64,000 nt of DNA, from contig NZ_AOIV01000045.1 in NCBI RefSeq assembly GCF_000337095.1, positions 126,795-190,794 of the forward strand. The letters run 5' to 3'. The stretch is from Halogeometricum pallidum JCM 14848 (lineage in GTDB: Archaea > Halobacteriota > Halobacteria > Halobacteriales > Haloferacaceae). Each line of letters begins with the position of its first letter. The first letter of the stretch is position 1. Positions 36,031 to 37,319 of this stretch are shown here, piece by piece. Position numbers and translations under genes: made by a program. The notes under the pieces are model-generated. The model was not told where the DNA came from and did no database searches. It worked only from the letters and a program-made list of their open reading frames with translations.

Positions 36031-37319
36031 GTGCTCGGCCCACTCGCGGACGCGCTCGCGGGCCTCTCCGCGGTGGAAGCGACGGTCGCCCTCCTCCTCG
36101 TCTCCGTGGTCGCCGCCCTCGCCTTGGAGTTCGTCGTCCTCCGGACGGCCCGCCGCTACGTCGTCCACACCGACAGCGCCTACGACGACATCGTCCTCTC
36201 GGAACTACGAGCGCCCCTGGTCGTCACCGCCGCCCTCGCGGGCGTCTTCCTCCTCACGCAGGTGCCGGCCGTGCGGGCGTCGACGGTGTTCCCGTCGGAG
36301 ACCCTCGACACCTTCTTCGGCCGGCCGTCGATATCGGTCATCGTGGTCGTCTGGGCGTACGCGGCCAACCGCGCGGTGAACCGACTGGTCGAACGGGTGA
36401 ACGACGAGGGCGGCCGGTTCGACTTCGCGCCCGTGTTCTCGAACGTCTGGACGCTGGTCGTCCTCCTCGGCGGCGCGGCCACCCTGCTGTACGTCTGGGA
36501 CATCGAGGTGACGCCGCTGCTCGGCGCGGCGGGCGTCGCGGGTATCGCGGTGGGCTTCGCCGCGAAGGACACCGTCGCCAACTTCTTCGGGCGTCGCCGG
36601 GCCACGCCTGGCGGCCCGTCAGACGCAGTCTGACGACGGAATCGCGCTGTACTTCGACGACACGTACAAACTCGGCGACTTCATCGTTCTCGACGACGGC
36701 ACCTCGGGGTCCGTCGTGAAAGTCGGCATCCGCTCGACCACGCTTCTCACCCGGCGAACTGATGGTGACGGTGCCGAACTCGGTGCTCAACGCGGCGAAG
36801 ATAACGAACGACTCCGCCCCGCAGCGACGGCGGCGCATCCGCGTGCCCCTCTCCGTCGCCTACGGAACCGACCTGGACGACTTCGAGGCGTTGGCCCTCG
36901 ATGTGGCCGAGGCGGAATCGCTCGTCCTCGACTCGCCGAAGCCGCGGATGCGCTTCCGCCGGTTCGGCGAAAGCGCCCTGGAGTACGAACTGCTCTGCTG
37001 GGTGTGCGCGCCCACGCGCCGCCGCGCCCAACACGAACTGAATCGCGCGCTGTATGTGGCGCTGAACGACGCCGAGATAGAGATTCCGTTCCCGAAGCGC
37101 GACGTGACGCTGACGACGGCCGCCGCGTCCGCGACGACGGGGGCGTCCGAACCGAGCGACGCCCGGTCGGAGGCGGACGAGCGAGTGGCGACGGACGGCG
37201 CGGGTGTGGGCGAAGCGGCGAGTGGATGCGCGGAGGGAGACGCCGACGACGATAACGACGGCGGCGCACACTCGGTGTCGGGGTCGGAGTCGGACGCCGA
37301 CGCCAGCCCGAAACGGTAA
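36031..37319 (+). pseudogene. MscS-family mechanosensitive channel gene, broken by insertion and a second frameshift
   Basis: Three frames must be joined to recover an MscS-like protein. The first part (36031-36590, from GTG) encodes several membrane helices and ends inside the pore-helix sequence GIAVGFAAKDTVANFFG. A 46-base insert (36591-36636) then disrupts the frame and brings a stop. The text continues in another frame as GIALYFDDTYKLGDFIVLDD to 36750. At about 36751-36755 the frame shifts again, and VTVPNSVLNAAKIT (36762 on) leads to the end of the MscS domain (IPFPKRDV) and a long acidic tail. Otherwise the sequence keeps family residues, so inactivation looks recent. MscS channels release solutes on osmotic down-shock. 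A sequencing or assembly fault cannot be excluded. Confidence 0.85.
36591..36636. mobile_element. 46-nt double-hairpin insert inside the MscS gene
   Basis: The bases between TTCTTCGG and CGGAATC, which would join in frame (NFFG to GIALYF), are extra. They contain an imperfect hairpin (CGGGCC at 36598-36603 and GGCCCG at 36613-36618) and a perfect one with 8-bp arms and a GCA loop (36617-36624 and 36628-36635). CGG occurs at both borders, so the exact ends are ambiguous and a short target duplication is possible. No transposase is encoded. Two hairpins in so short an insert resemble a minimal palindromic repeat or the hairpin end of an IS200/IS605-type element, but no second copy was found here. 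Confidence 0.5.

Follow-up and report, generated by a model that had tools for sequence, protein, structure and literature searches.

Which process placed 46 additional nucleotides inside a conserved MscS-like gene of Halogeometricum pallidum JCM 14848, and do these nucleotides belong to a wider class of elements? The locus lies on contig NZ_AOIV01000045.1, within the 64,000-nt stretch of DNA that we analyzed (the window), and comprises the following features.

36031..36591, + strand: N-terminal, MscS-like part of the gene, to ...VANFFG (open reading frame and orthologues)
36592..36637 (alternatively 36591-36636), + strand: 46-nt insert, absent from the four congeneric MscS genes in pairwise alignments
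36592..36594, + strand: left tag CGT (CGTC with the next base), according to the tag preference in 31 aligned copies
36595..36613, + strand: hairpin 1, CGCCGGGC-cac-GCCTGGCG, 8 bp with one G.T and a 3-nt loop
36614..36616, + strand: linker GCC (family version G, then C or G, then C or T)
36617..36635, + strand: hairpin 2, CGTCAGAC-gca-GTCTGACG, perfect 8 bp with a 3-nt GNA-type loop
36636..36638, + strand: right tag ACG (GACG when the base before it is included, CGTC on the opposite strand), according to 31 aligned copies
36638..37319, + strand: C-terminal part GIALYF..., in another frame (open reading frame and orthologues), with a further frame change near 36752
36749..36755, + strand: 2-nt deletion relative to congeners in pairwise alignment, the second break of the gene

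The MscS orthologues in all four congeneric genomes compared (G001-G004) are intact, read continuously with 87-93% amino acid identity, and are exactly 46 nt shorter at this position. The initial annotation had described an insert that disrupts a conserved MscS segment, holds two hairpins, of which one is perfect with 8-bp arms and a 3-base loop, and has ambiguous ends, and all of this agrees with our comparison. The borders 36592-36637 and 36591-36636 are equivalent placements, the choice depending on whether the ancestral codons were GGG-GGA or GGC-GGA, each of these patterns being found among the congeners. The unit is laid out as CGT-CGCCGGGC-cac-GCCTGGCG-GCC-CGTCAGAC-gca-GTCTGACG-ACG, with the two hairpins 3 nt apart, and its net length of 46 nt is one above the common 45. 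Folded as single-stranded DNA, it reaches -17 kcal/mol (z = -2.2). A de novo detector of adjoining hairpins, run over the 64 kb of the window, returned a single unit whose linker is of the G(C/G)C type, namely the insert, against one such unit in total in 20 dinucleotide shuffles.

The same annotation held that removing the insert restores NFFG followed by GIALYF in one frame. This is true of the local junction, where exactly 46 nt are extra, but not of the gene as a whole, since the second frame break near 36752 (window ACCCGG--CGAACTG versus congener ACCCGCGACGAACTG) means that removal of the insert by itself restores no full reading frame. As 46 is not a multiple of three and the 2-nt deletion is separate, the gene is broken twice and has no single reading frame. 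The N-terminal part gives a weak Pfam match to MS_channel_1st (E 7e-4, below the curated cut-off of that family), and MS_channel_3rd (PF21082) matches 36762-37316 (E 6e-8). Lineage-specific codon changes number 15 synonymous and 6 nonsynonymous, compared with 8/2 and 6/5 in two congeners; since they show no clear decay, the loss of MscS would be recent or partly a sequencing matter.

Exact matches to the core of hairpin 2, GTCAGAC-GNA-GTCTGAC (GTCAGACGNAGTCTGACG), were found at about 113 places in 85 of 392 genomes of the order, which represent 43 of the 95 genera sampled. These numbers undercount the family, the census having been built on one version of hairpin 2, and they refer to a sample of a larger order. 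A reversed-pattern control had zero occurrences in the same 392 genomes, which excludes a unique chance palindrome. In about 70 loci inspected with their flanks, a second, site-specific hairpin adjoins hairpin 2 across a fixed linker. When sites were picked by hairpin 2 alone, such a hairpin was present in 67 of 80 non-redundant haloarchaeal sites, compared with 66 of 1600 (4%) in a shuffled-flank control. Among 31 units of 19-3-19 geometry, hairpin 1 paired in 239 of 248 Watson-Crick cells versus 141 +- 6 with partners shuffled; these units had been selected for hairpin 1, so that the 80-site set provides the unbiased test. The sequence of hairpin 1 differs from copy to copy while its complementarity persists. 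In the 31 aligned copies, the linker reads G, then C or G, then C or T, the left tag has C in 21, G in 25, and T in 28, and the right tag has A in 26, C in 22, and G in 29. The family plan is thus CGT(C)-[about 8 bp, 3-nt loop]-G(C/G)C-[about 8 bp, 3-nt loop]-(G)ACG, with a net length of 45-48 nt. An outer CGT/ACG stem closing a three-way junction was also considered and rejected for want of covariation between its sides (81 Watson-Crick cells versus 91 shuffled), and the ends are better viewed as conserved tags. As unpaired tags, CGT and ACG are strongly preferred; the tag becomes CGTC if the outer stem base is counted, with CGTT in about a third.

We conclude, with a probability of about 0.78, that the insert is a non-autonomous palindromic element belonging to a family spread across the haloarchaea, in which each member is an inverted pair of hairpins with the tags outside. 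A viral vehicle for the element was rejected, IMG/VR contigs having yielded 0 exact matches.

Stretches of the H. pallidum genome totaling 1.66 Mb were searched for further copies. They contain 41 raw double-hairpin matches, each unit being counted on either strand, and a single shuffle gave 3. The exact 46-nt unit is present as a single copy. Two further units, in a MATE-family gene and in an ABC exporter gene, share the plan CGT-[8/3/8]-GCC-[8/3/8]-ACG with the MscS insert and have other stem sequences. Each is exactly 45 nt long and is missing from four of four congeners, which indicates that insertion has been recent and recurrent. Among the three well-mapped copies of this genome the stem sequences are not the same, which is not the pattern of a transposon that has just been amplified. 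The initial annotation's picture of a small palindromic element that has jumped into a conserved gene is therefore borne out by related copies at unrelated sites in dozens of genera and by empty sites in close relatives. Its expectation of copies elsewhere proved right for hairpin 2 across the order and wrong for identical copies in the own genome, where the relatives keep geometry and tags and have different, mutually complementary stems.

Empty sites were also mapped in other hosts. The unit in TrpA (tryptophan synthase alpha) accounts for 45 nt that are absent from the nearest congener, the other alignments agreeing barring small indels; most congeners lack the unit in BirA (biotin ligase), a difference of 48 nt; and a third site, in Halolamina, shows a 51-nt difference from its congeners. 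By these alignments, the mapped units are recent insertions at unrelated gene sites.

Against the empty sites, the BirA unit carries the target repeat ACGACGTNCTNGTCCC on both sides, and direct target repeats border several other copies, such as GACGTTGA in L014 and GACTTCGA in L016. At the amino acid level, own pairs agree at the third codon of the repeat in 38% of cases, versus 13.5% for swapped pairs (z = 4.8, 0/3000 shuffles). A rigid nucleotide repeat test over 41 copies was weak (0.433 versus 0.40, z = 1.6), and the idea that every copy makes a target duplication of exactly 8 bp was rejected. We take a short target duplication as real on average and for BirA, not for every copy; at the borders of the window copy, a clear direct repeat was not seen. 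The duplicated target contains the left arm of hairpin 1 in both BirA and TrpA, a hint that the hairpin may be completed from the target.

Where the units fall in genes, they seem to be read through. Of the 34 copies in clear coding sequence, as called from GC3 and stops with 29 ambiguous sites left outside this number, 32 preserve the reading frame without a stop and insert about 15 codons (...SQTxSDD...). Nearly all coding copies are in one phase, in which hairpin 2 reads (S/R)QTxSD; the downstream frame in the window likewise reads ...ARQTQSDDGIALYF. The hosts include, by Pfam, FolD, TrpA, BPL, ABC_tran, MatE, and AIRS, as well as histidine kinases. Examples of the translated unit are KWPN-DVLVPTGTGASQTESD-DVLVPDEE in the biotin ligase, VDIIAEQSSAGSQTQSDDVAEQ in TrpA, and RNAVEHGSTTSQTESDDAVEHG at the N-box of a histidine kinase. 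Surviving genic copies are thus, to judge from their lengths, read as a polar linker SQTxSDD or RQTxSDD. An absence of coding capacity, which had been attributed to the element, is not supported as a property of the family.

Several sites deserve separate mention. At the histidine kinase N-box NAVEHG, the AVEHG stretch is duplicated with the hairpin unit between the two copies, an arrangement observed in at least two genera (L026; L288 8631; L332 8494) and more than once in the H. pallidum genome itself. At the LYDVD position of an ABC exporter, a unit is present in three genomes of different families (L014 in G008, L064 in G105, and L117 in G198), where a hot spot, transfer, or an old shared insertion would each account for the shared position. 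In L016, from the congener G002, a unit with 8-bp direct repeats GACTTCGA sits at the 3' end of an apparent rpl29, and the apparent ribosomal protein L29 ends a few residues early. In L045, L109, L120, L124, L164, and L191, units are found at the acidic C-termini of a recurring haloarchaeal gene, the stop codon of which falls inside hairpin 1.

As to how the family spreads, the element may move in single-stranded form, folded, with a strand-processing enzyme or the replication machinery recognizing the hairpins and the CGTC/GACG tags; a transposase of the IS200/IS605-type HUH class acting in trans is one possibility. Selection would afterwards retain in-frame copies in tolerant loops, and the window copy would have come to rest at the NFFG/GIALYF junction of the MscS gene. 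A survey of Y1 HUH enzymes assigns to archaea the IS200-type subclass only (PMC6006769). The H. pallidum genome has one intact IS200/IS605 tnpA; this sole intact Y1 transposase, a candidate for such a role in trans, sits in an IS605 element, the right-end hairpin of which (CCTCGCCG-ttta-CGGCGAGG) is unlike the unit, and no enzyme could be tied to the element. Tentatively, and in our estimation rather doubtfully, about 8-16 bp of the gene would be duplicated on insertion and the end of the duplication inversely copied, hairpin 1 being a target-templated snap-back so that only the linker and hairpin 2 would travel. If true, insertion would follow a new mechanism, one that accounts for stems that are site specific yet pair perfectly.

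The main rival to mobility as a tagged hairpin pair is template switching at replication, which dispenses with a mobile element altogether: hairpin 1 forms as the nascent strand snaps back onto the target, a second palindrome is copied or made, and the strand re-anneals upstream, leaving a direct repeat, while palindrome correction keeps the stems perfect. Such a process would fit stems that vary freely under constant complementarity, the left arm of hairpin 1 in the duplicated targets of BirA and TrpA, and the direct repeats found on average. It would also fit the first 13 nt around the insert's left edge in the window (CGGGCGTCGCCGG), which match a stretch 58 nt upstream at 13 of 13 positions in the version of congeners G003/G004 and at 12 of 13 in the window itself. 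Local slippage would not, however, produce one hairpin 2 core with its GNA loop over and over in dozens of genera, together with a common linker and tags, and what differs between congeners are whole 45-48-nt units, with partial forms not seen. We therefore deem this explanation improbable.

The remaining rivals fare worse. Mitochondrial double-hairpin elements and byps are tiny double hairpins inserted in genes, and byps are skipped by the ribosome. With its 46-nt size and pair of hairpins, the insert resembles the byps and double-hairpin elements of fungal mitochondria, and its RNA might be skipped by translational bypass, as in Magnusiomyces, or spliced out as a mini-intron, so that MscS protein would still be made. 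A bypass element would have a length independent of frame, whereas 32 of the 34 coding copies are open multiples of three, which makes skipping needless and points to selection on the frame; the haloarchaeal units are, judging by their lengths, translated rather than skipped, and the window gene would in any case stay broken by its separate 2-nt deletion. We accordingly regard a bypass element, or skipping of any kind, as very improbable. An assembly or sequencing artifact would account for two frame breaks in a gene otherwise free of clear decay, and errors could indeed lie behind the odd base and the missing 2 nt, but a 46-nt unit with the geometry, tags, and linker of the family is no random error, and an artifact explanation, at most applicable to that single base and the deletion, is hardly credible for the insert. 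A terminator, riboswitch, protein site, or other regulatory structure kept by selection at these positions, for which the stability of the hairpins and the copies in non-coding DNA and around tnpB might speak, is scarcely conceivable given the unrelated hosts and positions, the lack of a match to the unit at threshold in Rfam, the in-frame translation through intragenic copies, and the missing unit at the same position in orthologues of the mapped loci.

Among known systems, the haloarchaeal unit comes closest to the CGTC-tagged REPs, which include Rickettsia RPE-4 and RPE-6 as members lying in frame within genes (Di Nocera et al. 2013, PMC3733652). Both are small palindromes, located in some cases inside genes. 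The REPs carry an unpaired CGTC-like tag and have no dedicated transposase known; the haloarchaeal CGT and ACG ends may correspond to that tag, and the unit may likewise be without a transposase of its own. The stems are of 8-9 bp in the REPs and typically of 8 bp, also 7 and 9-10, in the haloarchaeal unit; the REPs mostly form inverted HH dimers with the tags outside, as do 67 of the 80 haloarchaeal sites; and both have a 3-nt tail. They differ in the loop (4-5 nt versus mostly 3 nt, mostly GNA), in the tail (CCA versus GCC/GGC/GCT, common to both hairpins), and in the first two stem positions (A-T versus C-G or T-A, then mostly G-C). As loop length, tail, and first stem bases disagree with the text of the 2013 paper, on which rather than on its sequences membership was judged, the unit is not filed as a CGTC-tagged REP. 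That survey reports bacteria only, with "archaea" solely in its reference list (PMC3733652), and a later REP survey covering archaea considers intergenic DNA only and lists no Halobacteria (PMC12306157). The RPEs, described as palindromic repeats in frame within many unrelated protein genes (PMC3733652), resemble the unit by description in their in-frame location in diverse conserved protein genes, and differ in host domain and in that the haloarchaeal unit has one fixed two-hairpin plan of 45-48 nt. The PATEs and IS605-type ends of Haloquadratum (PMC3119063) are, like the unit, haloarchaeal and transposase-free, with palindromes near their ends and strain-specific insertions; however, they are longer, IS605-related, and make no target duplication, whereas the unit consists of the two hairpins alone. 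An identity as a PATE or IS605 derivative was rejected, the ends being unlike those of the one intact resident IS605 element compared. The GTAG REPs with RAYT transposases likewise come as pairs of tagged palindromes, for which movement in single-stranded form is assumed, but their tag is GTAG instead of CGTC/GACG. We therefore call the unit a new archaeal variant of the tagged palindrome kind, set apart from the CGTC-tagged REPs by their description.

The claim of a new or little-known haloarchaeal repeat also stands, in that CAGACGNAGTCTG, SQTQSDD, and SQTESDD led to no relevant paper in the open-licence literature, although an earlier description elsewhere is possible; as far as could be found, this tiny two-hairpin family was previously undescribed. 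In-frame palindromic elements are known from Rickettsia and some other bacteria, and the units described here provide an archaeal counterpart in 43 of 95 sampled genera of one order, still inserting between congeneric species. The family is thus ordinary in principle yet widespread, active, and testable. As haloarchaea have genetics, they offer a tractable setting for how transposase-less REP-like palindromes move. Through these units, proteins naturally acquire polar linkers of 15-16 residues, even in enzymes of core metabolism, and short SQTxSDD-type insertions in haloarchaeal proteins can be annotated as element-derived.

Related palindromes were noticed elsewhere. The same hairpin GTCAGACGNAGTCTGAC lies beside another in bacterial genomes of Kapaibacterium, Ignavibacteria, Leptospiraceae, Atribacteria, Butyrivibrio, Oscillospiraceae, and others (L129, L136, L141, L150, L151, L154, L165, L169, L172, L176, L185, L194, L198), where it takes the form CCCC..GGGG-T-hairpin-GGGGTG, is apparently non-coding, and reaches several copies in one Kapaibacterium bin. 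Arrays of longer palindromes, with 9-13-bp stems, YCAGA...TCTGR, and linkers TAGCA/TGCG/TGCC, are present in and around IS1341-type tnpB (L017-L023, L050-L061, L260 4000-5750, L335 2975-3083), and some of them apparently cause a shift of about 46 nt in the tnpB frame. In L009/L037 (G045 contig C2, about 95.5 kb), which belong to a small-genome member of the order, we observed dense tandem arrays of small hairpins with CGTCCC and GTGGGCT linkers.
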